Source of the DNA: Fibrobacter sp.
GTDB taxonomy: Bacteria; Fibrobacterota; Fibrobacteria; Fibrobacterales; Fibrobacteraceae
Reading direction: 5' to 3'
NCBI GenBank assembly: GCA_031271785.1
Contig: JAISUZ010000012.1
Location: 1 to 36,704, forward strand
DNA length: 36,704 bases
Part shown: positions 602 to 33,863 of the stretch, piece after piece
Position numbering within the stretch: position 1 is the stretch's first letter
Layout of the letters: the number at the start of each line of letters is the position of its first letter
The notes under the pieces: model-generated
What the model saw: only the letters and a program-made list of their open reading frames with translations
Told to the model about the DNA's origin: nothing
Databases searched by the model: none
Made by a program: the position numbers and the translations under genes

Positions 602-2209
602 CTACCCCGCCAAAGAACGTTTCAAAATTACGCCTTCCATCGCTTGCAATACCACGCCGGTTTCGGATAACTTTGTACTCTTATGCGTAGAAAACAGCAA
701 AGCCGCATTGCCGAACGCACCCTTATATTTCTTTTTCCGGCGGCTGAAATTCAAAAGCACGATAATTTCCTCCTGACCGTACACTCTCGAATAAGCCAAA
801 ATATTATTTTCGCCTTTTCCCAAAAAAGTAATATCGCCTTTTTGCAAAGCAACTTCTTTTTTCCGAAGCGCGAGCAGCGATTTATAAATACTCAAAATAG
901 AGTTGCTATCGTCCTGTTGTTTCTTCACATTGACGGTGGCATAATTTCCCGCCACAGGCAGCCACGGCGTTTCCTTGCTGAATCCGGCATGCGGTTTATC
1001 GCTCCATTGCATGGGCGTTCGCGCGCGGTCACGGCCCCTAAAAAACGGATAAAGTAACCGACCGTACAAATCCCGGATATGCGTTTTAGGAATCGTCACA
1101 TTCTCCATTCCGATTTCTTCACCGTAATAAATAAAAGGTGTTCCTTTTAACGTAGCAAGCAACACGGCGTGCAGTTTCGCCCGTTCGTATTTACTCCATT
1201 CCCAAAGCAACCGCCGAATACTCCGGCCGATATCGTGATTCGAGAGAAAAAAACAAGGCCAGCCGTCCGCCGGAATTTTTTCGTAATAACCGGTGAGCGT
1301 TTTGTAATAACCCGGCGCTCTCCACAACGTAAAAATCAGCGAGAAATCAAAAACCATGTGCAGCATATCCGTGCCGTTACCGAGGAAACTCGCCGCCAAA
1401 AACGGATCGCCGGGCGGCGGCGTATAAATTTCACCGACGCTGGTTTTCCCGGGGTAACTGTCCAGCAGCTTCCGGAAATCCCGCAATAACTCATAAGCTT
1501 CCGGCTGATTGCGATTGTGAATTTCCGACTTTTTGAAAACCCGGGATTTGTTATTTCTCAAATCCTTATCTTTATAAATCAGGTTAATCACATCCAACCG
1601 GAATCCGTCCACACCCATATCCAGCCAAAAGCGCATCACATCGAACATCGCCTCTTTCACTTCCGGATTGCGCCAATTCAAATCGGCTTGCTGCCAAAAA
1701 AACGAGTGATAATAATATTCCTTGGTTTTATGATCGTAACGCCACGCTTTTTTACCGAAGTTCGTGATCCAATTATTGGGCTTCTTGCCCTTTTGCCCCT
1801 TTCGAGGCGGCCGCCATATATACCAATCGCGCTTGGGGTTTTTCCTGGAAGACCGCGACTGCAAAAACCAGGGGTGCAAATCCGAAGTATGGTTCAGCAC
1901 CAAATCCATAATAACGCGAATTCCTCTTTGATGCGCCTCGGCAAGCAGATTTTTGAAATCATCCATGGTCCCGTAATGCTCATCAATATTTTGATAATCG
2001 CAAATATCGTAACCCATATCCACCATCGGCGAAGAATAAACCGGCGAAAGCCAAATAGCATCAACCCCGAGTTCTTTCAGGTAGTCCAGTTTTTTAATGA
2101 TACCGGGAATATCGCCGATCCCATCATCATTGCTATCTTTAAAACTATGAGGATAAATGTGATACACCACCCCATATTTCCACCAGTCGGGAGAATTGCT
2201 ATCGTACAT
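602..2209 (-). CDS. GH13 alpha-glucosidase / oligo-1,6-glucosidase
   Basis: Glycoside hydrolase family 13 enzyme of 535 residues, the usual length for oligo-1,6-glucosidase, trehalose-6-phosphate hydrolase or alpha-glucosidase. The TIM barrel starts at once (WWKYGVVYHIYP, residues 9-20). Conserved region I is DLVLNHTSD (102-110), region II GFRLDVIN with nucleophile D206, region III VGEIY with acid/base E260, and region IV FLSNHDIGR with D326. The DSNDDGIGD calcium-loop motif (25-33) is also present. No signal peptide, so it is probably cytoplasmic and acts on imported malto- or isomalto-oligosaccharides. The exact linkage (alpha-1,4 or alpha-1,6) cannot be read with confidence. The start is the ATG at 2209, with a weak ribosome binding site. 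It is a lone gene, divergent from the ABC gene at 2680, and no clear terminator is visible after it. Confidence 0.93.
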   Translation of the reverse strand: MYDSNSPDWWKYGVVYHIYPHSFKDSNDDGIGDIPGIIKKLDYLKELGVDAIWLSPVYSSPMVDMGYDICDYQNIDEHYGTMDDFKNLLAEAHQRGIRVIMDLVLNHTSDLHPWFLQSRSSRKNPKRDWYIWRPPRKGQKGKKPNNWITNFGKKAWRYDHKTKEYYYHSFFWQQADLNWRNPEVKEAMFDVMRFWLDMGVDGFRLDVINLIYKDKDLRNNKSRVFKKSEIHNRNQPEAYELLRDFRKLLDSYPGKTSVGEIYTPPPGDPFLAASFLGNGTDMLHMVFDFSLIFTLWRAPGYYKTLTGYYEKIPADGWPCFFLSNHDIGRSIRRLLWEWSKYERAKLHAVLLATLKGTPFIYYGEEIGMENVTIPKTHIRDLYGRLLYPFFRGRDRARTPMQWSDKPHAGFSKETPWLPVAGNYATVNVKKQQDDSNSILSIYKSLLALRKKEVALQKGDITFLGKGENNILAYSRVYGQEEIIVLLNFSRRKKKYKGAFGNAALLFSTHKSTKLSETGVVLQAMEGVILKRSLAG

Positions 2210-2364
2210 AAGCCGTCAGGGAACGTGGTTTTGCCGAATAAAAAAAGAACATGTTTCCGTAATTTAAGAAAGAGATGTTAAAATTTCGTTAGAATGATGT
2301 AAAAACGGTGTCAAGTATTTTTTATCATGACTTCTCTTTTGAAAAGAACGGCGCTTATTTTACG

Positions 2365-2603
2365 GGCGGCTTCCTCCGCATTCGCTCCGGAACCGGGCTG
2401 GCATTTTACACGGCATCAAAGATACCGGTAATAGTATCACCGCAGACTTGGAAAGTCTTACATGAAATCGCGAATTAAACTGATGCCGGTAATAAGTATC
2501 ACCGCAGATTTGAAAAGTCTTACATGACATTGCGAACTAATTGATGCCGGTAAAACGGAGCCGCGAAACGCGTCTCCGCCCGTTCGGGTCGCATCCCTGC
2601 CGC
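2365..2603 (+). repeat. Structured dispersed element, copy A (with two inner modules)
   Basis: Full copy of an intergenic element found four times here (also 4071-4244, 5094-5203, 27999-28135). The ends pair as GCGGC (2366-2370) with GCCGC (2599-2603). An inner stem pairs TTTTAC-(a)-CGGCATCA (2404-2418) with TGATGCCG-GTAAAA (2542-2555). Next comes a hairpin CGGAGcCGCG-AAA-CGCGtCTCCG (2556-2578), then CGGGTCGCATCCCTG. The large inner loop holds two tandem 61-bp modules (2425-2485 and 2486-2546). It lies in the divergent spacer between the GH13 and ABC genes, so it could affect either promoter. I do not recognise the family; structured RNA and mobile hairpin DNA are both possible. Confidence 0.75.
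2425..2546 (+). repeat. Tandem pair of 61-bp inner modules
   Basis: Two head-to-tail copies (2425-2485 and 2486-2546) of a module beginning CCGGTAATA and ending GATG. They share TATCACCGCAGA, AAAGTCTTACATGA and GCGAA, and differ at about ten scattered positions. Single copies occur in the element at 4071-4244 and alone at 454-522. The pair shows that the module can multiply within the element. Confidence 0.7.
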
Positions 2604-2679
2604 AGTAACTCATTCACGCTCGAACGTATTTTATCATTTACTATTTTGAATAACCGTTTCACAAAAGGTCTATCAATCC

Positions 2680-4047
2680 GTGAATTATTCTTCTTTGAAA
2701 TCTCTCGTTGATGCGTTTCCGCAGGCACAACTCGTACCGTTTCCGTCGGGCGATGCGCCGGAACTCTTAGCGATACTCTCGCAAAAGTTTTCGCAAGTCG
2801 GTTTCTTTTCGGGAGAACTTCAAAAGAAAATTCAGCGCGCACTCGCTCCTTTCTGGCAGCAACGCTTAATTAGCCTTGAAGACCGCGAAACGCCCCGCGT
2901 GCGCAATTTACTCTTGAAGAAAAAATTCTTTCTGCAATCCGATTATGCAGTCGAAGCCGAAGCGTTCCCACCAACCGATGAAACACGTTTACAATCAGGC
3001 CTTGAATTTGCAGATCTGCCGCCCGGTATTTTGGATCGCACCCTCTTGAGTCTCTCCAACGGGGAACTCCGCCGCGTTCTTCTCGCCCGCCTCACCATGG
3101 AAAACCCGAAAAGTATTTTGATCGACGATTTGTTCGGCGGCCTGGATCCGGAATTCCGCGAGGAACTCGCCAAACATATTCTGCAACTCCGAAAAGAAAA
3201 AATCCCCATGCTGATCGGCCTCAAACGCGAAGACGAACTCCTCCCCGAAATCCCGGCATTCCGGTTTGAAAACGGCGTATGGAAAAATATTTCGGACAAA
3301 CTCCCGCATGCCCTTTCTCATTTTTCGGAACCCGCACACCCGAACCGTTACGAAATCCGCACGCTCCAACCGGTCGATAATCCGGGCGAAGTCCTTGTGA
3401 AACTCAACCATGTGAACGTCTCTTTCGGAGAAACACCGGTCATCCGCGACCTCTCCTGGGAAATCCGGCGCGGAGAACATTGGGTCGTCATGGGCGCAAA
3501 CGGCGCCGGCAAAAGCACGCTGCTTTCCCTGCTCTCCGCCGATCACCCTCAGATTTACAAAAACGATATTGTCCTTTTGGGAGAACGCCCCGGGCAAGGT
3601 CTAAACATTTGGGAACACAAAGCCAAAGTCGGATTTTTCTCACCGGAACTCGCATTGCAGTACCGCGAAAAATTGAGCCTCCTCGAAGTCGTTTGCACCG
3701 GATTCACGCCTTACCTCACGCTCGTTCGAGAACCCTCGTGGGAAGAAAAACAAAAAGCAAAGATCTGGCTCACCGAATCGGGATTCCCGGACCCCGGCAA
3801 ACCCTTCGCGGCGCTCACCCCCGAAGAAAAACGATTCGCACTCCTCCTTCGCGCCACCGTGAAACCGCCGCAACTCCTGCTTTTAGACGAACCCACCCAA
3901 GGCATGAGCGAAACCTGCCGCGAAACCCTTTTCAGCCTGCTTCAATTCTTATCCGAACACACCACGCTCGTGTTTGTCACGCATTACGAAAACGAATGGG
4001 CGCCCTGCATGACGCATTTACTTTCCATGCCGAAATTTTCGATGTAA
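2680..4047 (+). CDS. ModF-like double ABC ATPase with one complete ATP site
   Basis: Cytoplasmic protein of 455 residues with two ABC ATPase halves and no membrane segment, resembling the ModF/PhrA group. The N-terminal half has the signature LSNGELRR (125-132) and a Walker B-like ILIDDLFGGLD (146-156), but no Walker A loop; its region before the signature is short. The C-terminal half has Walker A GANGAGKST (272-280), Walker B plus glutamate LLLLDEPTQG (399-408) and a switch histidine in VFVTHYE, but its signature is worn to LTPEEKR (379-385). The Walker A of one half and the signature of the other would make a single complete composite site. The start is GTG at 2680, behind AAAAGG. No permease gene is adjacent, so the partner is unknown. 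A regulatory or repair role is as likely as transport. Confidence 0.88.
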   Translation: MNYSSLKSLVDAFPQAQLVPFPSGDAPELLAILSQKFSQVGFFSGELQKKIQRALAPFWQQRLISLEDRETPRVRNLLLKKKFFLQSDYAVEAEAFPPTDETRLQSGLEFADLPPGILDRTLLSLSNGELRRVLLARLTMENPKSILIDDLFGGLDPEFREELAKHILQLRKEKIPMLIGLKREDELLPEIPAFRFENGVWKNISDKLPHALSHFSEPAHPNRYEIRTLQPVDNPGEVLVKLNHVNVSFGETPVIRDLSWEIRRGEHWVVMGANGAGKSTLLSLLSADHPQIYKNDIVLLGERPGQGLNIWEHKAKVGFFSPELALQYREKLSLLEVVCTGFTPYLTLVREPSWEEKQKAKIWLTESGFPDPGKPFAALTPEEKRFALLLRATVKPPQLLLLDEPTQGMSETCRETLFSLLQFLSEHTTLVFVTHYENEWAPCMTHLLSMPKFSM

Positions 4048-11242: not shown

Positions 11243-13159
11243 ATGTTTCTAAAAACCCTCGGAGTTCTTTTCTTCGTTTCGTTTGCCGCCCTGTTTCAAG
11301 GCTGTACTTGCTGTGCCTATTTAAACCACATGTTCAACGCCGAGCGCACTTACGAAGAAGCCGCCGAACTCCGGCAAACACGCCTCGACAGCATTCCCGA
11401 AGATTCCACGAGCCTCCCGACAGGCGACGAACTAAAAAAATACGACCGCGTAATTGAAAAAGGTTCCCGTGTTTTGGAGCGCTTTCCCGAAAACGAACGC
11501 CAAACCGCAAATGCAATTCTCTTAATCGGGGAATCGTTCCGCCACAAAGGAGAATGGGCGCAGGCGATCATCAAATACGATGAATTCGAACGTTACTTTT
11601 CCTCTCACGATTCCATGCCCATGGTAGAATACGAGCGCGCTTACTGCCTCTACCGCAACGGCGAATACAATATCAGCCGGTTTGCCCTGGAGCCGGTATT
11701 AAACCCGAACCACCCTTATTATTACGACGGCCTGAACTTACTCTCCCTTTTAGACGAACAATCGGACACGCCGGACGAAGCGATCCTTGCGCTTGAAAAA
11801 ATGCTGGAAGACAGCACGGCAGGAACTCCGTACATCCGCGGAAAAGCGCATTTCCGTTTAGCCGGACTCTATTATAAACTTGAAAAATGGGAAAACGCAC
11901 GCAAGCATTTTCGGGCTCCGGAAATCCGGGAACTATCGCTTGCGAACCGCTTTGCCGCCGCCATTTACAGCGCGGAATGCGAAGTGAACCTCAAACACTA
12001 CGCGGCGGCCGGAGAAGAATACGCGGCCATGATGTCGAATAAAGAATTTGAGGAACACCTGCCGGAACTCATGGTGCGCCGCGCCGAAATTTTACTCCTT
12101 GCCGCCAATTGGACGGAGAGCGAGCGTTTATTTCACCGCGTAAACAGCGAGTACCCCAAAACCGAAGTCAGCGCGCGCAGTTATTACAATCTCGGTGATT
12201 TTTACCAAACCGAAAAACGCGCCTACCCCGAAGCCCTCGCTTATTACGACAGCAGCACCATCGCCATGTCCGCTTCTTCCTGGGGGCAAAACAGCCGTGA
12301 ACGAAAACAGGCTCTGGAACGATTACTCGCCCTCGAACAGCAAAACGCCGGACTTGAAAAAGATTCCGCAGCCAAAAAGCCTTTCTTTGAAAACGAATTT
12401 CAAATTTCCGAATTGTTCCTGTTCCGCCTTTCGGAACTCGACAGTTCCCTCGCCCGTTTAGACCGCATTATCAACGAAGCCGAAGACACAACCCTTGTAT
12501 TGCGGGCCACGTACGCGCGCGCCTTTATTTTCGATGAATACAAAAACGAGCCCAATCAAGCGGAAGCCCTCTACCGCGAAATCATTGAAAAATACCCGAA
12601 CACGGAATACGCGAAAAGCGCACAAAGTATTCTCGGAATGCGCGTCACCATGAAAACAAATGAAGACCTTGCACACGAAGCCTTTTTGCATGCCGAAAGT
12701 CTTTGGGTCGCCGCCGAAGCCGTACCGCTTGAAAGCATGTCGCTTGTGGATTCGGCATTTGCGCAAGCCATCACCGCTTATGATTCGGTTTACCGCGCCT
12801 TCCCGAAAACAAATTACGGCGCGCAAGCTCTTTTTATGAAAGCGAACCTGCTTGCCATGGATCCGGTAAAAAAAGACAGCACTATCGCCGTTCTTATTAT
12901 TCTCCGAAACGAATATGCGGCAACCCCATGGGGAAAAGAAGCCGCCTACCTTTTAAATTCCAAACAAACCATCACCAACGATGAATTAACACGCCTCAGA
13001 AATCGTTCCGCGGCGAACGAAGCTTATTTGGAAAAACTTTCCAAACAGTATTACGAGAGTTTCAAACCGGTAGAAAAAAAGCCCGAAGTACAGCAGCAAA
13101 AATCTACGGAAGACGAAATTCTCGAAAATACTTACAACAGCATGTATGACTTTGATTAA
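11243..13159 (+). CDS. TPR-repeat outer-membrane-type lipoprotein
   Basis: Predicted lipoprotein of 638 residues. I chose the ATG at 11243 because it gives a clean signal peptide (MFLKTLGVLFFVSFAAL) ending in the lipobox LFQGC, with the lipidated Cys at residue 21. Longer starts at 11174 would put extra polar residues before it. The rest is made of TPR-like helices in two blocks: YDRVIEKGSRVLERFPEN, AQAIIKYDEFERYFSS and NEPNQAEALYREIIEKYPNTEYAKSA, the last typical of BamD/YbgF-like TPRs. No residue after the Cys predicts inner-membrane retention, so an outer-membrane location is likely. It overlaps rlpA by 14 bases, forming an envelope operon. Partner unknown. Confidence 0.85.
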   Translation: MFLKTLGVLFFVSFAALFQGCTCCAYLNHMFNAERTYEEAAELRQTRLDSIPEDSTSLPTGDELKKYDRVIEKGSRVLERFPENERQTANAILLIGESFRHKGEWAQAIIKYDEFERYFSSHDSMPMVEYERAYCLYRNGEYNISRFALEPVLNPNHPYYYDGLNLLSLLDEQSDTPDEAILALEKMLEDSTAGTPYIRGKAHFRLAGLYYKLEKWENARKHFRAPEIRELSLANRFAAAIYSAECEVNLKHYAAAGEEYAAMMSNKEFEEHLPELMVRRAEILLLAANWTESERLFHRVNSEYPKTEVSARSYYNLGDFYQTEKRAYPEALAYYDSSTIAMSASSWGQNSRERKQALERLLALEQQNAGLEKDSAAKKPFFENEFQISELFLFRLSELDSSLARLDRIINEAEDTTLVLRATYARAFIFDEYKNEPNQAEALYREIIEKYPNTEYAKSAQSILGMRVTMKTNEDLAHEAFLHAESLWVAAEAVPLESMSLVDSAFAQAITAYDSVYRAFPKTNYGAQALFMKANLLAMDPVKKDSTIAVLIILRNEYAATPWGKEAAYLLNSKQTITNDELTRLRNRSAANEAYLEKLSKQYYESFKPVEKKPEVQQQKSTEDEILENTYNSMYDFD

Positions 13160-13568
13160 AAGCTTCCTTCTTTTACTGACTCTCATACTGCTTATCAGCT
13201 GCGCCGGGAGCGCGAGTATCGGCGCCCGCAAAGGTTACGACCGCAATCACAAATCGGGAACCTCCGCAAATACCGGAAGTTCGTTCCGCGGAGAAGCGAG
13301 TTTCTACGGACCCGGATTTGCCGGAAAAAAAACCGCAAACGGTGAAATTTTCGACCCCGAAGCCATGACCTGCGCCCACCAAACGCTCCCTTTCGGCACC
13401 AAATTGCGAGTCACTCACCAAGGGAACGGTAAAAGCGTGGAAGTGCGCGTGAACGACCGCGGCCCCTTTGCTCATAACCGCGTACTGGATCTAAGCGTTG
13501 CCGCCGCCCGGAAACTCAATATGGAAAAAGAAGGGCACGCGGAAATTACGGCGGAAGTCATAGAATAA
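13146..13568 (+). CDS. rlpA: RlpA-like DPBB lipoprotein (septal lytic transglycosylase type)
   Basis: Lipoprotein of 140 residues with signal peptide and lipobox LLISC (Cys19), followed by a double-psi beta-barrel domain (about 48-138). Diagnostic motifs: GEASFYGPGFAGKKTANGE, MTCAHQTLPFGT, VRVNDRGPF and RVLDLS. The catalytic Glu and Asp of RlpA-type lytic transglycosylases correspond to the E of GEASFYG and the D of VNDRGPF. No C-terminal SPOR domain, so this is the short form. It probably acts on peptidoglycan from the outer membrane. It starts inside the end of the TPR lipoprotein gene (14-base overlap) and is followed by a strong hairpin terminator. Confidence 0.92.
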   Translation: MTLIKSFLLLLTLILLISCAGSASIGARKGYDRNHKSGTSANTGSSFRGEASFYGPGFAGKKTANGEIFDPEAMTCAHQTLPFGTKLRVTHQGNGKSVEVRVNDRGPFAHNRVLDLSVAAARKLNMEKEGHAEITAEVIE

Positions 13569-13588: not shown

Positions 13589-13607
13589 ACGCCCGCAAAG
13601 CGGGCGT
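13589..13607. terminator. Bidirectional intrinsic terminator
   Basis: ACGCCCGC-AAA-GCGGGCGT, a perfect 8-bp stem. T-rich on the plus side (GATTTTT, 13611-13617) and preceded by an A-run (13585-13588) that would be Ts on the other strand. It lies between the convergent ends of rlpA and the lamin-tail gene and can serve both. Confidence 0.85.
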
Positions 13608-13638: not shown

Positions 13639-15162
13639 TTATTTCCCCGGGGTGGGAGTCCGGGCTTCCCAATTACCGGGTTCGTGTCCGGATAAATTAA
13701 AGTCTTTGCGGTTCAGACTTTTTCCGAGACCGTCCGCTTCCGTTGGCCAGGCGCCGCGATCCGAATAAAGAATGGCATCCGACCATTGGTAGGCGCATTG
13801 CTTTTCCGCAGGGTTCAGCGGGTCGATAAAACAAGGCGGATAAGGTTTCTGCAATACCAAAAGCTCGCCGCGGTTGGAAACTTTTCCGGGGTAAGTCACA
13901 ATCGGAATTTCGTTTGCAATGCCGTAAGCCGCTCTGAATTCCGCCGTGTCCATGGAAAGCGTATCTTGAATCAGGAGCATCATACCGTTTGCCGGCACGG
14001 CATCTGTTGAACTGAATGTAAGCGCAATTCCTTTCACGCTCCAAGCGGCTTGTTCCGCCACATCGTAAAGCGGCACCACGGTATCGGAAAGGTTTCGAAT
14101 CTCAATAAATTCAAGCGTGCCGGTGTTTTCTACCGGGTGATAATGAATCTCATTGAAATAAAGAGGTCCCATCAAAGGCCCGCTGTTTTGCTTGCCCCGT
14201 GTGGGTTCAATCAGCGAACCCTGCTCCAGCGAGCCGTCGGAAAGCGTAATCACGCCGGCCGAAGAATTCGGCGTTACCGGATATTCCAAACCGCTTTCCG
14301 CCCCGGTCTCCTTTCCATTTACGACCTCTCTGAGGTAAAGCGATTCCCCATTCTGAGAGAAGAATTGAAAATCTTCCGCATCGGAAACCAAATAAGCGTT
14401 AGCCGGAACTACGGAACCGGCGGGGACTTCATAAACTTCATAAGAATCTCCCACTTCACGCACCACATGCCACCCGCTGATATCCTTCGCTTCCGCGCCG
14501 GAATTATAAAATTCAACCCAACCCGGCGTACCGCTGTAAGGCATCACTTCGTTGATGCGTACCGTGAGCGGCGCAATATATTCATCGGGGCCGCCCGGAT
14601 TGCCGCCGTCTGTTTTACTCGCCGCCCAAGAGAACGGGGACCCCGGGAAACCGCCGGTATAAACAAGGGTATGCCCTTCCCCGGCAGCAAGGCTCGGCCA
14701 AGGCGGAGCACCGTCAAAACGGCAATCCACATCGCCTTTTCCGTCCAATTTGACTTCAATTACATCGCCTTCATTCGAAAGCCGCCCCACCGTTCCTTTC
14801 TCGGGATCAATATCCCACGGCCCGAACAAACGTCCGGAAAAGTTAGGATAACGCTCGTGAAAAAGCGCTACATCATTGGTGACGACAATGTATTCTCCGG
14901 TATCGAGAGGCTCTGCCGGGAATGTATAAGTAATAGCGCCGTCCAGGCGGAGCAGCGCATCCGTCATATTTTGAATCGCAGGTCCGCTTTCGATTTTGAG
15001 TTCTATAAATTCAAGATCGGTGGTATCGTTAAACATGATTTCGGAACACGACATAATCGTGACATCGGAATTTTTGGTTTTGGTTCCGCTGCCCGGATCA
15101 CAAGCGCAAAAGCCCGCCGCCAAAAGCGGCAAACTCCATTTGAGTAATTTCCTTTTTTGCAT
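13639..15162 (-). CDS. Lamin-tail-domain (LTD) lipoprotein
   Basis: Predicted surface lipoprotein of 507 residues. The start at 15162 is chosen because GAGAGG lies 5 bases upstream. The hydrophobic lead (LLKWSLPLLAAGF) ends in a Cys-Ala-Cys stretch, so lipidation at Cys19 or Cys21 is likely although the box is unusual. Three lamin-tail-like beta domains are visible, each beginning with a conserved asparagine strand: SEIMFNDTTDLEFIEL, RINEVMPYSGTPGWVEFYN and FNEIHYHPVENTGTLEFIEIRN. LTD domains in bacteria are secreted binding or structural modules; no catalytic motif is seen. It is the last gene of the DUF4956-HlyD-TolC-VTC unit (29-base gap after the VTC gene). In other genomes LTD segments are often joined to CotH-type kinase domains; no such domain is present here. 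Confidence 0.85.
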   Translation of the reverse strand: MQKRKLLKWSLPLLAAGFCACDPGSGTKTKNSDVTIMSCSEIMFNDTTDLEFIELKIESGPAIQNMTDALLRLDGAITYTFPAEPLDTGEYIVVTNDVALFHERYPNFSGRLFGPWDIDPEKGTVGRLSNEGDVIEVKLDGKGDVDCRFDGAPPWPSLAAGEGHTLVYTGGFPGSPFSWAASKTDGGNPGGPDEYIAPLTVRINEVMPYSGTPGWVEFYNSGAEAKDISGWHVVREVGDSYEVYEVPAGSVVPANAYLVSDAEDFQFFSQNGESLYLREVVNGKETGAESGLEYPVTPNSSAGVITLSDGSLEQGSLIEPTRGKQNSGPLMGPLYFNEIHYHPVENTGTLEFIEIRNLSDTVVPLYDVAEQAAWSVKGIALTFSSTDAVPANGMMLLIQDTLSMDTAEFRAAYGIANEIPIVTYPGKVSNRGELLVLQKPYPPCFIDPLNPAEKQCAYQWSDAILYSDRGAWPTEADGLGKSLNRKDFNLSGHEPGNWEARTPTPGK

Positions 15163-15191
15163 ACACACCTCTCAATTAATATATCAAACTT

Positions 15192-15998
15192 TCAAAATCC
15201 GTCACAATGCGGCGTTCTGAAGTTTTGCGGATTTTCATAAACTCGCCGCCATTCCGCGGCAGCATTCCCGAATTTGGAAAAACTGCTCTGTTTCAAATTC
15301 AAAGTTCTAATCAAATCAATCATCCAAAACGGCACTTGAGAACTCGGACATTTCAGTTCAAGCACCGCATCGCAGCCCGGCACAAAAAAGCGCGGAAGCC
15401 CCGTTGAAAACATATAATGCGGATCCACGGAATAATCCAGCCCGTTTTCTTCGCGGAAACGCATTCCGGTATCAATCGTCACCCGGGAATACTCCTCGGT
15501 GGTACCGAACCAGGCGCGCCGTTTATACTGCGTGAGAAGCCGGGGCCTTGCATGAAATGTTTCGGTTTTGTATAAAAACTCTTCCAGATAAGCGCGGTCT
15601 TTCTCTTTCTTGACCGGCCATTCTTCCGGAGATTTTTTCCAAACCGCCTCAGGATTTTCTCCGCTGATGGTCGCACGGCTTTTAAAACACACGTCTCTGA
15701 CTTTCCGTTTCACTTCAAAATGAAAAACGCCGTCCGGATCGGGATGTTCGCCGTAAGTGCGAATCCGCATATTGAAGCGGTCCAGAAGCCTCGCTTTTTT
15801 CCAGCCTAAAAAAGTCCAGGAAGGGGAATCCAAATAAAGATTCGTGATCCAGTAAAAACCGCCGGGAGTCACTTTGGAATAATGATCTTCTTCGCAGTAA
15901 GGCGCAATCAATTCTCCGATACGATCCGCCCATTCCACCGGAATGTGATACTTCAACTCAAAACGCTCCAACAGGCTGAATCCGCGCGCGCCGCTCAT
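15192..15998 (-). CDS. VTC-domain polyphosphate polymerase-like protein
   Basis: Protein of 268 residues made of one VTC domain, the triphosphate-tunnel fold that makes polyphosphate in yeast Vtc4. Tunnel motifs in order: FELKYHIP (13-20), ITNLYLDS, RFNMRIRTYG, FHFEVKRK, SRVTIDTGMRF, VLELKCP and SSFSKFG. The basic and acidic residues expected to line the tunnel are all kept, so activity is plausible. No membrane segment. Its ATG follows the TAA of the TolC-like gene with no gap, so it is coupled. VTC and DUF4956 genes are commonly adjacent in bacteria; the product and purpose of such systems are not established. Polyphosphate as product is inferred from the fold only. Confidence 0.9.
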   Translation of the reverse strand: MSGARGFSLLERFELKYHIPVEWADRIGELIAPYCEEDHYSKVTPGGFYWITNLYLDSPSWTFLGWKKARLLDRFNMRIRTYGEHPDPDGVFHFEVKRKVRDVCFKSRATISGENPEAVWKKSPEEWPVKKEKDRAYLEEFLYKTETFHARPRLLTQYKRRAWFGTTEEYSRVTIDTGMRFREENGLDYSVDPHYMFSTGLPRFFVPGCDAVLELKCPSSQVPFWMIDLIRTLNLKQSSFSKFGNAAAEWRRVYENPQNFRTPHCDGF

Positions 15999-17294
15999 TT
16001 AGAGCCCTACTTGCAAATGGTTCAACAAGTTTTCCCGGGAGAAAATACCGGCGTAATCCAAAAGGATAAAGAAACGTGAGTAAATTTCATATTCAAGGCG
16101 CACTTGCTTTAGCGTACTTTCGAGCGCGACTTCCCGGGCGCGCAAAAGGAGCAGAGGATCCGAGCCCGCATTCATTGCAAAATCCTGAAAAAGCTGGCCG
16201 GCATCTACTTCCCGTACAAATTCTTTTTGAATATTCCGCTGCGCAATAATCGCCGCCATTTCTTCGCGAATCCGCGCCGCTTTCTGGGTTAAGTCCCGCC
16301 GAACTTCGAGGTAATCGCTTTCATCGTCCAAAACGGAAATCTGGCGCCTCATATCGCCGTCGCTGTTATCGGTAAACCACGGCAGTTTAAGCGCGAGGTT
16401 GATATAGAATTTGTCGATCAGGCGGCGGTCATCTTCCGAGCGTATCAAAATCCATTCTTTCTCGGAATAAGAACCCGGTACATACTCCCACTTGTATTTT
16501 TTCTCCGCAATCACATGTTTATAACCGAAACCGATGTATGAAAACATATCGTTATCCGTAGCGCTTTCCTGATGATAACGTTTCTCGGAAGCATTCCACT
16601 TGCTTTTCGCCTGTGCAATCTGCGGATAAGCGGAATCGGGAGAAGAGGCTTCTTTCAGAAACTTCTCAATTTGTTCTATGGAAGGAAGCCAGGCCGAATC
16701 CAGTTGAATTTGATCGAACTCCGGAATCCAGGAACGAAACTTCATTTCAATGTCCAAAAGCGCATTGCTGTCCGCCACGAGTGCCGCCGAAATTTCAGCT
16801 TCCCGCTCCCGCGCGGAAATTAAACTTTGCAAATCAAAACCTTCCGCTCCGCTTTTCATGCGAAGCACTTCTATCCGGTCTTTATTGACTTGAAACAACT
16901 CGCGGTTGATTTTCTGAATGCGCTCTTGAATCACAAAACGAAGCCCGCGCTCATAACGTTCATACATAATGTAAGAACGGTCCACCGCTTTCCGCGCTTT
17001 CTGGTAAGTCTCCATAGCGTCCCAATATTCCGAGGTCGCCTTTGTTTCTCCCCACGGATTCGGTTTTAAACGAAGTTCAAAATCGTGTTCCAAAAACCCC
17101 AAACCGTTCAGTTGGTAGCGAAACTCCAAATCATCCCACAACTTGGTAGAAGCCCCCTGGCTCACCGAATTAATACGGCGATCCGCGGCGTTCAACACCG
17201 GATCGTCATTGACGGAACCGATCAATGTTTCCCACGTCAGCGAGGAGCCAAAAGAAAGTACGGCAAAAAGCAGAATAGTCCACAAAATTTTCAT
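15999..17294 (-). CDS. TolC-like outer-membrane factor
   Basis: Protein of 431 residues with a signal peptide (MKILWTILLFAVLSFGSS) and long helical segments resembling outer-membrane efflux (TolC/OEP) proteins: about 85-175 (YWDAMETYQKARKAVDRSY, ERIQKINRELFQVNKDRIE) and about 310-420 (DYLEVRRDLTQKAARIREE, REVALESTLKQVRLEYEI). The two helical halves around a central polar part fit a TolC-type hairpin layout, but similarity is low and it is shorter than many members. It sits directly after the HlyD-like gene (4-base overlap), as expected for an adaptor/outer-membrane pair. It would form the outer-membrane channel of the unit. An alternative is a periplasmic coiled-coil protein. Confidence 0.7.
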   Translation of the reverse strand: MKILWTILLFAVLSFGSSLTWETLIGSVNDDPVLNAADRRINSVSQGASTKLWDDLEFRYQLNGLGFLEHDFELRLKPNPWGETKATSEYWDAMETYQKARKAVDRSYIMYERYERGLRFVIQERIQKINRELFQVNKDRIEVLRMKSGAEGFDLQSLISAREREAEISAALVADSNALLDIEMKFRSWIPEFDQIQLDSAWLPSIEQIEKFLKEASSPDSAYPQIAQAKSKWNASEKRYHQESATDNDMFSYIGFGYKHVIAEKKYKWEYVPGSYSEKEWILIRSEDDRRLIDKFYINLALKLPWFTDNSDGDMRRQISVLDDESDYLEVRRDLTQKAARIREEMAAIIAQRNIQKEFVREVDAGQLFQDFAMNAGSDPLLLLRAREVALESTLKQVRLEYEIYSRFFILLDYAGIFSRENLLNHLQVGL

Positions 17295-18340
17295 TGAGGA
17301 TTCTCCGTAGCCTCATAATTCAAAAGCTTTTTCCATTCGGGGACTTCCGAAATCGAAACTTTTTCTCCGAGAAGCAAATCGTTTTTCTCGGGAATGCGAA
17401 TAATCACTTCGCGCCCATAAATCATAAATTCCGGAACCTTACGGAGGCGTATCGGAAATTCCACAATCCGGCTGCTCATTCCCGTCACGACCCCTTGATA
17501 GCGATGTCCGCCCGCTTGAGAAGAAATCACATCGACATTCGCCCCTACCTGAATTTGATTGTAAACGGTTTCGTGCACATAGCCGCGAATCATGGACGGC
17601 GCTTTTTTCGTGAGCGTCAAAAGCGGGAAAAAACTCGAAGCGCGTTCGCCGTCGCGCACATTCACAGCGCCCACTACCCAATCTTCTTTCGCCGTCACCA
17701 CAAGTTCTTCCTGCTCTTTTTTCAGCATTTCCAACTCGCGCAGGAGCGCCTCGGCTTCGCTTGCGTTACTGGTTTTCTGCAAACCCTTGCTCCCCTGTAA
17801 AAGCCGGATCTGCGAACGGGCGTTTTCTTCTACCATTCGGAGTTCCTGTTCCAAGTTGCGAATCCGCATCACCATCGCATTATTGGAATCGGCTGGAGCG
17901 GCTTTAGGCAAACTGCTTAATTTGGAAGTAATCTCCTGATTATGCCGATACTCGCTTTTCAAGCGGTTGATTTCAAAAACGAGGGCGTTTTTCCGTGTGG
18001 CCAAATCGGCCTGAACTTCCGCCACCCGCTGGTCGATAGAAGCGGAACTCACATGCGTGCGCCCCTCGATAATATCCAGTTCGCGCGCCACTTCGTTCAT
18101 CCGGACGGCAAGGTCGGAGCGGCTGAGTTCCACAAGCGTATCGCCGTTTTTCACTTCTTGCCCCGGAATTACATGCACCTTGACAATTTCCACCGCCGTT
18201 TGAACGCTCACCACCGTTTCCGAGGCTTCCGCCACGCCGGCAAAAATGATCGTTTCCCCGCGAAACAAATAACCGAAAGTAACGATGGCCGCCACCGCTA
18301 AAATCCAAGCAAAAAGAAATTTATTCCTGAAAATCACCAT
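17291..18340 (-). CDS. HlyD/membrane-fusion-type periplasmic adaptor
   Basis: Protein of 349 residues: an N-terminal membrane anchor (about 6-27, FLFAWILAVAAIVTFGYLF), a biotinyl-lipoyl-like half (VKVHVIPGQEVKNGDTLVEL), a coiled-coil hairpin (about 75-215, including INRLKSEYRHNQEI and LLRELEMLKKEQEELV), the second lipoyl half (VTAKEDWVVGAVNVRDGERA) and a beta-barrel part ending KNDLLLGEKVSISEVP. This is the order of HlyD/AcrA-family adaptors. I prefer the ATG at 18340: a GTG at 18346 overlaps the DUF4956 stop but leaves too little room for a ribosome binding site. No ABC or RND pump gene accompanies it here; DUF4956 is the only inner-membrane candidate in the unit. Confidence 0.85.
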   Translation of the reverse strand: MVIFRNKFLFAWILAVAAIVTFGYLFRGETIIFAGVAEASETVVSVQTAVEIVKVHVIPGQEVKNGDTLVELSRSDLAVRMNEVARELDIIEGRTHVSSASIDQRVAEVQADLATRKNALVFEINRLKSEYRHNQEITSKLSSLPKAAPADSNNAMVMRIRNLEQELRMVEENARSQIRLLQGSKGLQKTSNASEAEALLRELEMLKKEQEELVVTAKEDWVVGAVNVRDGERASSFFPLLTLTKKAPSMIRGYVHETVYNQIQVGANVDVISSQAGGHRYQGVVTGMSSRIVEFPIRLRKVPEFMIYGREVIIRIPEKNDLLLGEKVSISEVPEWKKLLNYEATENPQ

Positions 18341-18342
18341 AA

Positions 18343-19026
18343 TCACATCTCGGTGGTAGCATCTTGCATCATGAACTGAACTCCGGAAAGCCCTTGAATT
18401 TGCGTCAACTTTTTAAGCACTTGCGCCGCGCCCAGGTTCCGCCTTAAATGGATCTGATACGCCACATCAATCCGCGAACCGCCATCGACTTCCCGCATGG
18501 TTACCAGAACAAAAGTTCTCAAATTCTCGCGCAGAATCTTTTCGAGCTGAAGCCGCGCTTCGGATTCGTTCGGCATGGCGAAACGGAGCATGCCGTCAAA
18601 AAAGTTCCGGCTACCGAGCCCCGAACGGCTGACAATCGCCGCCACTAAACAAAACGCCGCCGTACCGCCGGCGGCAACGCCCCAGGCAAACACGCCGCAG
18701 CCGATCCCCGCGCCGAGAGCGGCAAACAGAAACATAATATCCCGCGGGTCTTTAAAACTCGTTCGGAAACGCACAATCGAAAGGGCGCCGAGCATCCCGA
18801 GACCGCGCCCCACATTATCGCCGATCGCCTGCATCACCGTTGCCGCCACAATCGAACTCAATACGAGCGCCTGCACAAAATTCCGGGAATAGGAAAGCCC
18901 TAAAAAGGTCTTCTCATAGGTAAAACCAATCAGCGAAGACAGAATAAAAGCTAACAAAAGGGTGTAAATCATTGTGATCACAGTCGGATACGCAGTACTC
19001 GACTGAACGGTCAGCAAATCAATCAT
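18343..19026 (-). CDS. DUF4956 multi-pass membrane protein
   Basis: Inner-membrane protein of 227 residues. Four hydrophobic segments: about 17-37 (VITMIYTLLLAFILSSLIGF), 50-68 (FVQALVLSSIVAATVMQAI), 95-115 (RDIMFLFAALGAGIGCGVFA) and 116-133. Then comes a soluble C-terminal domain of about 90 residues (ARLQLEKILRENLRTFVLVTM). The conserved DUF4956 feature GMLGALSIVRFRTSFKDPRD lies between segments 2 and 3. The start is the ATG at 19026, preceded by GGAGAG; the longer frame to 19065 is not supported. It is the first gene of a five-gene minus-strand unit, so its promoter lies in the 215-bp divergent gap shared with rubrerythrin. Function unknown; the family is often next to VTC-domain genes. 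Confidence 0.9.
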   Translation of the reverse strand: MIDLLTVQSSTAYPTVITMIYTLLLAFILSSLIGFTYEKTFLGLSYSRNFVQALVLSSIVAATVMQAIGDNVGRGLGMLGALSIVRFRTSFKDPRDIMFLFAALGAGIGCGVFAWGVAAGGTAAFCLVAAIVSRSGLGSRNFFDGMLRFAMPNESEARLQLEKILRENLRTFVLVTMREVDGGSRIDVAYQIHLRRNLGAAQVLKKLTQIQGLSGVQFMMQDATTEM

Positions 19027-19241: not shown

Positions 19242-19820
19242 ATGAAAAAGAGCATCAAAGGAACACAAACAGAAAAGAATTTACTCGCCGCTTTCGCCGG
19301 AGAATCCCAGGCACGGATGCGTTACACCTATTTTTCAAGTGTGGCCCGCAAAGAAGGTCTCATTCAAATTTCCCTGATTTTTGAAGAAACCGCAAACCAG
19401 GAAAAAGAACACGCCAAACGCTTTTGGAAATTTTTGGAAGGCGGGATGGTTGAAATCACGAGTTCTTACCCGGCAGGCGTAACATCCAGCACGCTGGATA
19501 ACCTCAAAGCCGCTGCCGACGGTGAAAACGAAGAATGGACTCACCTTTACCCGCATTTTGCCGTGATCGCACGCGAAGAAGGTTTCGAGGACGTTGCCTG
19601 CGCGTTCGAACGTATTTCCGTTTCCGAAAAACAGCACGAGAAACGCTACCGCGATCTTTACAACAATCTGATGGCCGGGCGCGTTTTCAAAAAAGAAGGA
19701 AAAGTCACCTGGCGTTGCCTCAACTGCGGTTATCTCCACGAAGCCGAAAGCGCTCCGGAACTCTGCCCCGCCTGCCTGCATCCGAAAGCTTATTTCGAGA
19801 TTCTCGCAGAAAACTGGTAA
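19242..19820 (+). CDS. rbr: Rubrerythrin
   Basis: Di-iron peroxidase of 192 residues that reduces hydrogen peroxide in anaerobic or microaerobic bacteria. The ferritin-like four-helix part has E21 (FAGESQARMRY), the E-x2-H pair E54/H57 (NQEKEH), EE near 97-98 and the second E-x2-H pair E129/H132 (SEKQH). The C-terminal rubredoxin domain binds one iron through C159/C162 (CLNC) and C175/C178 (CPAC). Length and order match classical rubrerythrin. Start ATG behind AAAGGA. It implies an anaerobic lifestyle with oxidative-stress protection. The response-regulator gene follows after 54 bases, so co-transcription with the signalling genes is possible but not shown. Confidence 0.96.
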   Translation: MKKSIKGTQTEKNLLAAFAGESQARMRYTYFSSVARKEGLIQISLIFEETANQEKEHAKRFWKFLEGGMVEITSSYPAGVTSSTLDNLKAAADGENEEWTHLYPHFAVIAREEGFEDVACAFERISVSEKQHEKRYRDLYNNLMAGRVFKKEGKVTWRCLNCGYLHEAESAPELCPACLHPKAYFEILAENW

Positions 19821-32629: not shown

Positions 32630-32968
32630 TCAGAACATTTCCAACTGAACGGAGCCCAGCGGTGGGAGAGTATCTTTATTACCGTAAAAAATCTGCATAT
32701 CACCGAATTGTTTGTCCGTAAGGTGCAAAATACAAACCTTACCGCCCGGCTGTAAAAATTTTCTCACTCGCTCCACATGGACGCTCATGTTTTCTTTGCT
32801 CGCGCAATGCCGCCAATAAACGGAAAGTTGCCCCATCACAAAGCCATCCTTGAGGAGGTCTTTCCTGAATTGAGCGTGCCGTCGCTTATCTTCCTTGGTT
32901 TCGGTCGGCAAATCAAAAAATACCATGATCCACATAACTCGATACTGATTAAGTGCATTCTGTTTCAT
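32630..32968 (-). CDS. cas2: CRISPR-associated protein Cas2
   Basis: Adaptation protein of 112 residues, partner of Cas1 in spacer integration. The first strand RVMWIMVFFDLP (10-21) carries the conserved Asp; then TKEDKRRHAQFRKDLLKDGFV and QLSVYWRHC fit the type II Cas2 ferredoxin-like fold. The start is the ATG at 32968 (MKQNALNQYR); the frame open to 33007 lies in cas1 and adds nothing typical. It overlaps the cas1 end by 20 bases, so they are coupled. No cas4 or csn2 follows, in line with type II-C. Confidence 0.95.
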   Translation of the reverse strand: MKQNALNQYRVMWIMVFFDLPTETKEDKRRHAQFRKDLLKDGFVMGQLSVYWRHCASKENMSVHVERVRKFLQPGGKVCILHLTDKQFGDMQIFYGNKDTLPPLGSVQLEMF

Positions 32969-33854
32969 AAATTCTCGGGTACAAGAGTTTCTTCTTTTTC
33001 CCTTCAAAGCACGCCACTAAAGAGGCGGAAGTTCGCGAAAGAGCCACAAGCATAGGGCTTTTTTCTTTTTCAAAACGACAATCGAAAGCAAGAATACCCA
33101 GTAAATGTTTTTTTATTTCAGGGGTCAGTTCATTACTCCGATTTGCCGAAAAAATTTCCCGCACCGCCATATCCACATAAGGACGATAAGGTTCCATAAT
33201 GTCGTCGGCAAGGCAATAAGCATTATATTGGTTCCTATGAAAAATTCCGAGTGTAGGCAAGAGTCCGGAGCCCACAAGCGCGCGGGCAGTAGCAGCACGC
33301 AGAATAGCATAGCCGTAATTGAGTAAATGATTAGGCGAATTGCCTTCGGGCGAACGCGAAAAGCCGTTAATGAAATCTTCAAAAATCAATTTCCAGTAAT
33401 AACTCGCAGCTTGAGCTTCGCAATTATTGGTATCGCCGCTATTCACCGTTTTGGCAAGGTATTCCATTCGTTTCACATCCTTACCAAGATGCCTTAAAAC
33501 AGCGGATTGATTTTGAATTTTAGCTTGCACTGTTTGCAACCAAAGTTGTTTTTTAAGCGGCTCACTCGCTTCGATCTGTTTTTGAAAACGATTACTTTGC
33601 AATGTATTTCCATCCAAATTCAAAAACATACCGACCGGCAAATGCTTTGAATCGGTAGTGATAATCACCGCATTATTTTCAAGTAAAAGCGCCATTGCTC
33701 GCTGAGTAATGGTAATTTGCGGATTATCTAAAATAATCACCCCAATATCTTCAATCGGGCGCGTGATTTCTCTTTCACTTGTCTTGATCACAAGCTGAAA
33801 GTCTTTCACACTCAGGTACGCCGGATTGGAGAAATTGAGGGTTTGTTTTATCAT
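32949..33854 (-). CDS. cas1: CRISPR-associated endonuclease Cas1 (type II)
   Basis: Integrase of 301 residues, normal for type II Cas1. The N-terminal beta domain has EDIGVIILDNPQITIT (35-50). In the helical domain the metal ligands are E146 (NNCEAQAASYYW), H206 (LGIFHRNQYN) and E221 or D217/D218 (LADDIMEPYRP). LLNYGYAILRAATARALV (177-194) is the usual conserved stretch. Nine bases separate it from the cas9 stop and it overlaps cas2, so cas9-cas1-cas2 is one operon. Confidence 0.97.
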   Translation of the reverse strand: MIKQTLNFSNPAYLSVKDFQLVIKTSEREITRPIEDIGVIILDNPQITITQRAMALLLENNAVIITTDSKHLPVGMFLNLDGNTLQSNRFQKQIEASEPLKKQLWLQTVQAKIQNQSAVLRHLGKDVKRMEYLAKTVNSGDTNNCEAQAASYYWKLIFEDFINGFSRSPEGNSPNHLLNYGYAILRAATARALVGSGLLPTLGIFHRNQYNAYCLADDIMEPYRPYVDMAVREIFSANRSNELTPEIKKHLLGILAFDCRFEKEKSPMLVALSRTSASLVACFEGKKKKLLYPRIYETECT

Positions 33855-33863
33855 GATAGATGA

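Follow-up and report, generated by a model that had tools for sequence, protein, structure and literature searches.

The locus described here raises a question of transport: what passes through an adaptor and an outer-membrane channel that come without a pump, and what would drive it? It is located in a stretch of 36,704 nucleotides from a Fibrobacter sp. genome (contig JAISUZ010000012.1 of a 2.28-Mb assembly; hereafter, the window). Five genes on the minus strand, read from position 19026 to position 13639, encode a divergent DUF4956 protein, a HlyD-type adaptor, a TolC-fold outer-membrane factor (OMF), a VTC protein, and a lamin-tail protein (Table 1). We put the chances at about even that this unit is a synthesis-driven polyphosphate exporter that crosses both membranes, with CotH and lamin-tail proteins receiving the polymer at the surface. 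Its parts are known; what is new is the combination of a putative VTC-type polymerase with an exit through the envelope, in a HlyD-OMF version and in a barrel version.

The four-gene core and the absent pump

Starting from DUF4956, the five genes are joined by a 2-nucleotide gap, a 4-nucleotide overlap, a direct abutment, and a 29-nucleotide gap. The original prediction, made from the sequence of the window, had described five overlapping or nearly touching genes on one strand; re-reading of the joints confirms this, and the DUF4956, HlyD, TolC-like, and VTC assignments are each backed by a Pfam or fold match. In Fibrobacterota, such units come in two flavors. Type A combines a divergent DUF4956 with HlyD, OMF, VTC, and, mostly, a lamin-tail protein; type B consists of a VTC gene next to a canonical DUF4956, without HlyD or OMF. 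The divergent type-A DUF4956 proteins, including the one in the window, score roughly 40 to 60 bits against PF16316, as opposed to >130 bits for the canonical ones.

Named genomes, scanned with an alignment of type-A DUF4956 proteins, yielded 180 relatives, and the 80 best among them comprise 56 loci from Fibrobacterota and 24 (sorted by title) from Desulfobacterota, Gammaproteobacteria, one Arcobacteraceae metagenome-assembled genome, and one unclassified bacterium. The DUF4956-HlyD-OMF-VTC core lies in one run in 69 of these best 80 loci. In this count, as in those for the type-A regions and for the barrel below, open reading frames (ORFs) at a distance of >350 bp or on the opposite strand are left out, and some genomes appear twice. 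Seven other loci (L141, L158, L160, L164, L188, L195, and L209) border a contig end or belong to short contigs, and two (L146 and L149) contain all four genes outside a single run. All four are present in 18 of the 24 loci outside Fibrobacterota and in 24 of the 25 type-A Fibrobacterota regions that were fetched; the exception, L103, has no recognized OMF. Several loci outside Fibrobacterota show the permuted order HlyD-OMF-VTC-DUF4956, so that the grouping is unlikely to result from inherited order alone. Trees of the four genes are in agreement, with pairwise distances correlated at r values of 0.85 to 0.95 (37 loci) and 0.80 to 0.96 (17 loci outside Fibrobacterota), all without a background-gene reference; VTC ORFs of <240 aa, OMF ORFs of <350 aa, and HlyD ORFs of <280 aa were dropped from these and from the invariance counts given below. 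Of 297 genomes from the phylum to which Desulfonema magnum belongs, just 6 matched at E values of ≤1e-20 (3 of these at <1e-100), which is not a wide spread in Desulfobacterota; this patchy distribution is compatible with transfer of the unit as a block. In the 167 genomes of the window's own phylum, DUF4956 is found in 133, an OMF match in 107, VTC in 136, and CotH in 142. The unit is a conserved gene set and not a local accident, and the combination first noticed in the window recurs in several phyla.

The adaptor has one N-terminal membrane helix, as judged by reading its sequence. The HlyD_D23 model stays below its cutoff, and EmrA-, MdtN-, and HlyD-like NCBIfam models match the adaptor far under theirs; no NCBIfam family above its cutoff names this unit. 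The window OMF itself has no Pfam match, and 19 of 39 members of its family match OEP (PF02321) when matches are listed at E values up to 0.1. Its AlphaFold model, with a predicted local distance difference test score (pLDDT) of 86.4, retrieved in Foldseek 44 PDB matches at E values of <0.001, all to TolC-, OprM-, or CusC-type channels; the modeled fold is that of TolC. The RLS/RLT docking motif at the adaptor tip, RxxxLxxxxxx[ST], derives from adaptors that partner E. coli TolC (PMC3391258; here and below, PMC numbers refer to excerpts of the papers). It is found in 5 of 106 HlyD-labeled ORFs, which include the pump adaptors of Fibrobacter; a different pattern, N..L...L.S, is found in 69 of them.

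No ABC-2, RND, or MFS gene is present among the five unit genes or among the 18 proteins of the window that were searched with Pfam models (further ORFs lie outside that scan). The sole ABC match among the scanned proteins, at 2680-4047, consists of two ABC_tran stretches. The unit might serve a pump encoded elsewhere, with HlyD-OMF as half of an ordinary tripartite exporter. Members of the genus Fibrobacter offer a candidate, a complete OEP-HlyD-ABC2 operon directly downstream of the lamin-tail gene (e.g., in L097, L102, L126, and L128), whose OEP gene adjoins the unit in 30 of 46 Fibrobacter loci. However, this operon brings its own adaptor and OMF, its OEP gene is adjacent in none of the 34 other loci (as searched with single-sequence profiles of limited sensitivity), and DUF4956, HlyD, OMF, and VTC stay together across phyla in its absence. 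The operon's own adaptor and OMF, the count of 0 of 34 beyond Fibrobacter, and the window scan lead us to reject a nearby missing pump as a general explanation, and a pump that always accompanies the cluster, which would have spoken against the original prediction, was looked for and did not emerge. Neither the window unit, as originally predicted, nor the core of its relatives has one. We consider service to a pump encoded elsewhere quite improbable.

The putative polymerase and its membrane partner

The window VTC protein has no visible membrane segment. Since this single sequence found no solved relative, a family profile was compared with solved structures instead, and it matched yeast Vtc4 with an E value of 5.6e-8 and Vtc2 and Vtc3 less well. 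Arg, Lys, and Glu residues of Vtc4 align with R78, R80, K97, K106, R160, R172, E214, K216, and K242 of the window protein. All 72 of 72 sequences compared share the same residue at these nine positions, which correspond to presumed catalytic residues of Vtc4, and at nine further ones that were checked. Lys-458 of Vtc4 is catalytic (PMC4641920). The polymerase assignment of the original prediction is thus in line with the residues present, and the window protein is a putative polyphosphate polymerase. The VTC gene of Desulfamplus magnetovallimortis (L138, 12290-13110) reads as two ORFs of 101 and 164 aa.

The VTC protein could also be a triphosphate or polyphosphate hydrolase, and the OMF would then serve a device for importing or scavenging phosphate or polyphosphate. 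Its E14 is acidic, a kind of residue that is presumably present in hydrolases of the VTC fold, and the window genome also carries PPK1. The fold does include tripolyphosphatases (PMC4641920). Some adaptors of about 600 to 750 aa (in L143, L138, L146, and others) have a C-terminal part that resembles SdiA-regulated/Phytase-like propellers, with matches to the SdiA-regulated, Phytase-like, and DUF3616 models. In L172, the unit is followed by a gene for an entire Phytase-like protein. Nevertheless, among relatives with solved structures the polymerase Vtc4 comes first and, to our knowledge, adaptor-OMF conduits serve as export ducts in known systems. In the hydrolase AtTTM3, Glu takes the place of four basic Vtc4 residues (PMC4641920); the ones that can be placed in the window protein, R12 (by inspection) and K216 (from the Vtc4 alignment), are basic and invariant, although E14 is acidic. 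A hydrolytic importer therefore appears improbable. The SdiA-regulated/Phytase-like part is encoded by a separate gene in L144, L147, and L150.

DUF4956 is the sole inner-membrane candidate of the unit, as the original prediction had it, and is proposed here as the translocation channel. Its AlphaFold2 model (pLDDT of 78.7, predicted template modeling score of 0.59) consists of five predicted helices and a C-terminal ACT/ferredoxin-like domain. A fold search with this model shows that residues 142 to 223 resemble ACT/ferredoxin-like folds, with Z scores up to 10.7; a sequence search for a solved relative gave nothing meaningful. G77, R86, and R88 are invariant in a 52-sequence alignment, and segment 86-95 has a mean net charge of +3.0 in 81 sequences. 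The mean net charges of the loops (-1.2, +0.4, -1.0, +3.0, 0.0, and +0.7) suggest an N-out, C-in topology, in which the conserved RFRT-KDPR loop and the ACT-like domain would face the cytosol.

Homology of DUF4956 to MgtC is a lead only. The DUF4956 of one Fibrobacterota genome (G166) passes the cutoff of PF02308 (33.2 versus 31.4 bits), and weak matches to this family are found in 11 of 52 members, with a best E value of 0.006; the profile-profile probability in hhalign is negligible (<2%). The G166 gene (L114, contig C57, 8788-9309, minus strand) is located beside genes for a 565-aa protein with a thymidylate kinase domain and a Porin_O_P protein.

Outer-membrane exits, surface partners, and the proposed route

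In type-B units, all six DUF4956 neighbors tested match PF07396 (phosphate-selective porin O and P; Porin_O_P) with E values of 1.4e-5 to 8.2e-4, and the neighbor of the G166 DUF4956 matches it at 1.8e-10. According to a profile built from the six, 24 of 44 type-B loci include a Porin_O_P-like barrel in their run, compared with none of 56 type-A loci; some genomes appear twice in this count, and L121, which is among the 24, reaches a score of only 23 bits. Counted by genome, the barrel is located beside DUF4956 in 20 of 27 genomes with canonical type-B units; the 7 barrel-less ones include 4 (G006, G026, G042, and G049) in which the contig ends no more than about 1.2 kb from DUF4956. The barrel follows the canonical DUF4956 in L116, L117, L119, L132, L133, L134, and other type-B loci. 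These counts make HlyD-OMF and the barrel look like alternatives, so that many units bring their own outer-membrane exit. Such a swap is expected of an exporter of the VTC-DUF4956 product, and a phosphate porin family fits polyphosphate; because the sister barrel replaces HlyD-OMF, passage of an anionic phosphate polymer across the outer membrane gains independent support. DUF2490 is presumably another outer-membrane barrel. In Bacteroides thetaiotaomicron, DUF4956 is listed in one table row with DUF2490 (PMC10434189).

CotH, which the original prediction missed, adjoins the unit in L095, L107, L110, L112, L113, and L130, as well as in eight Desulfobacterota loci (L138, L146, L148, L149, L152 to L154, and L157). 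In the window genome, neither of the two CotH genes is adjacent to the unit; both products have lipoprotein-like N termini and, by sequence reading, lamin-tail-like stretches. Each genome has one unit, and Fibrobacter genomes have up to 12 scored CotH matches. VTC and CotH co-occur: 134 of the 167 genomes have both, 2 only VTC, 8 only CotH, and 23 neither (P = 2e-19, uncorrected for kinship), and the corresponding numbers for 40 genera are 27, 1, 2, and 10 (P = 8e-7). PPK1, taken for comparison, is negatively associated with VTC in the 167 genomes (30, 106, 21, and 10); in one genus (g6, G060 to G139; 80 genomes), VTC is found in 76 genomes and PPK1 in only 3. Bacillus CotH is a kinase of spore-coat proteins (PMC9765600). 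The CotH link suggests that the polymer would be delivered to kinases at the surface, either instead of being anchored or in addition to it. Clostridial VTC genes are located beside genes for membrane "tubulin/FtsZ" proteins of 222 to 226 aa and a CotH gene (CP4_0460 to CP4_0465; PMC2879425), and these "tubulin" genes probably encode DUF4956 proteins under a wrong annotation.

The lamin-tail protein starts at an ATG at 15162, with a possible GTG at 15168. Of the three lamin-tail domains originally predicted, two pass Pfam; the third comes from reading the sequence and is partly seen. A lipobox-like N terminus is found in most relatives, and that of the window protein is noncanonical. The lamin-tail gene follows VTC in 22 of the 25 type-A Fibrobacterota regions. 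Its product may tether clients near the exit.

Alternatively, HlyD-OMF could export a protein or polysaccharide, with VTC-DUF4956 as its regulatory or energizing phosphate module and with CotH and lamin-tail proteins modifying the exported matrix. In type-B units, VTC is often preceded by a gene for a Cthe_2159-type carbohydrate-binding protein, the ACT-like domain of DUF4956 is possibly regulatory, and in Gram-positive bacteria CotH, a polyphosphate polymerase gene, and DUF4956 are found beside Pel polysaccharide genes (PMC7112168). However, the core contains no glycosyltransferase or conserved exported protein in the 80 loci, and most relatives have a lamin-tail partner with the look of an ordinary lipoprotein. 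Such a lipoprotein is not known to need a HlyD-OMF route. Export of a matrix component is unlikely.

We infer the product, direction, engine, contacts, and client of the proposed polyphosphate exporter as follows. The cytosolic VTC protein, judging from its similarity to Vtc4 and its invariant aligned residues, would polymerize phosphate from ATP, and the growing chain would enter DUF4956, proposed to be an oligomeric inner-membrane channel whose cytosolic loop is basic and whose ACT-like domain is regulatory. The yeast VTC complex couples polyphosphate synthesis to translocation (PMC10167327). By analogy, polymerization itself would be the engine; no ABC, RND, or MFS pump would then be needed, which would explain its absence. 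HlyD and the TolC-fold OMF, or the Porin_O_P-like barrel in sister units, would lead the chain, the putative cargo, over the periplasm and the outer membrane. Outside, lamin-tail and CotH lipoproteins would receive it, most likely as a substrate or phosphate donor of the CotH kinase; CotH is suggested as the recipient by its co-occurrence with VTC. The original prediction, of an anionic polymer made by the VTC protein and exported or anchored through DUF4956-HlyD-TolC, is partly supported: the unit is conserved, the polymerase residues are in place, and the sister barrels favor passage of a phosphate polymer across the outer membrane.

Several points weigh against this exporter, in addition to the Fibrobacter ABC-2 operon, PPK1, and E14 discussed above. 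L155 has no recognized VTC, and L200 has no recognized OMF. The membrane part of DUF4956, barely probed with a model of modest quality, matches no known fold and might belong to an unlisted family, and its positive loop may reflect the ordinary positive-inside rule. Only two of the six type-B barrels exceed the PF07396 cutoff (20.9 bits), most falling below it, and membership in the Porin_O_P family does not prove phosphate selectivity. CotH is unmatched in 7 of 22 unit-bearing genomes outside Fibrobacterota (covering 22 of the 24 loci), several of which are maybe incomplete assemblies. A more specific version of the exporter appears doubtful: the pumpless conduit would release polyphosphate during its synthesis as a high-energy donor for surface CotH kinases in an extracellular space devoid of ATP, with a single exporter serving up to a dozen or more candidate kinases per Fibrobacter genome and with HlyD-TolC and the barrel being interchangeable. 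If true, it would be a direct answer to the question of where kinases outside the cell obtain phosphate.

Genomic context and comparison with known systems

Table 1. Features of the unit and of its immediate surroundings in the window
Feature	Position	Strand	Evidence
DUF4956 inner-membrane protein, 227 aa	18343..19026	-	PF16316, ~55 bits (cutoff, 30.6); ATG at 19026
HlyD-type periplasmic adaptor, 349 aa	17291..18340	-	PF13437, 25.8 bits (cutoff, 22.2)
TolC-fold outer-membrane factor (OMF), 431 aa	15999..17294	-	OEP matches in family, AlphaFold model, Foldseek
VTC-domain (triphosphate tunnel) protein, 268 aa	15192..15998	-	PF09359, 111.9 bits (cutoff, 23)
Lamin-tail-domain lipoprotein, 507 aa	13639..15162	-	PF00932, 70.9 bits, two stretches
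Terminator-like hairpin closing the unit	13589..13607	both	8 pairs, 7 of them G-C
RlpA-like protein, flanking/facing gene	13146-13568		DPBB domain
Rubrerythrin-like protein, flanking/facing gene	19242-19820		Reading of translation

The terminator role of the hairpin is a positional reading only, because shuffles of the region give about as many hairpin-type patterns (mean of 10.0) as the region itself (11). At the window end, minus-strand genes encode Cas1 (32949-33854) and a RuvC_III/HNH_4 protein (33864-36704), as identified with Pfam; by their domains, the locus at 32949-36704 is likely a type II CRISPR-Cas system. In L201, a protein with a PPDK_N ATP/phosphate-transfer domain (2060-4003, plus strand) directly precedes a HlyD-OMF-VTC-DUF4956 unit.

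DUF4956 is named in PMC7112168, PMC10434189, and PMC6848847, and its grouping with VTC and CotH is in print, with no function of DUF4956 given in the excerpt (PMC7112168). A literature search, with subscription papers and preprints outside its reach, found no description of the DUF4956-HlyD-OMF-VTC unit or of its barrel version. If the proposed export is real, polyphosphate would cross two membranes with polymerization as the only engine, adaptor-OMF conduits would not be bound to ABC, RND, or MFS pumps, DUF4956 would gain a function, and VTC-type polymerases would reach into surface biology. The swap between HlyD-OMF and the barrel in sister units makes this idea testable gene by gene; once export and donor supply were shown, the unit would deserve a class of its own.

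With the yeast VTC complex, the unit shares the VTC/TTM catalytic domain, aligned with Vtc4, the pairing of a polymerase with a membrane protein, and possibly synthesis-coupled translocation (PMC10167327), the engine proposed here. In contrast to that complex, its five proteins contain no SPX or Vtc1-type membrane domain detectable with Pfam, its membrane partner is DUF4956, and the target would be the cell exterior, reached via HlyD-OMF. The VTC-DUF4956-CotH sets that accompany Pel clusters in Gram-positive bacteria also combine VTC ("poly-phosphate polymerase") with DUF4956 (PMC7112168), and CotH is a companion in several relatives of the window unit. The excerpt on those sets mentions no HlyD, OMF, or barrel (PMC7112168); in the window, CotH is not adjacent and DUF4956 is divergent. 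Like the tripartite efflux and type I secretion systems AcrAB-TolC, MacAB-TolC, and HlyBD-TolC, the unit has a HlyD-type adaptor and a TolC-fold channel, encoded by neighboring genes; it contains no ABC, RND, or MFS transporter, and the RLS/RLT pattern is infrequent among the HlyD-labeled ORFs. The type-B units of Fibrobacterota are similar in having VTC and DUF4956, an outer-membrane exit, and surface companions (CotH and Cthe_2159-like proteins) but include a β-barrel in place of HlyD-OMF and a canonical DUF4956.

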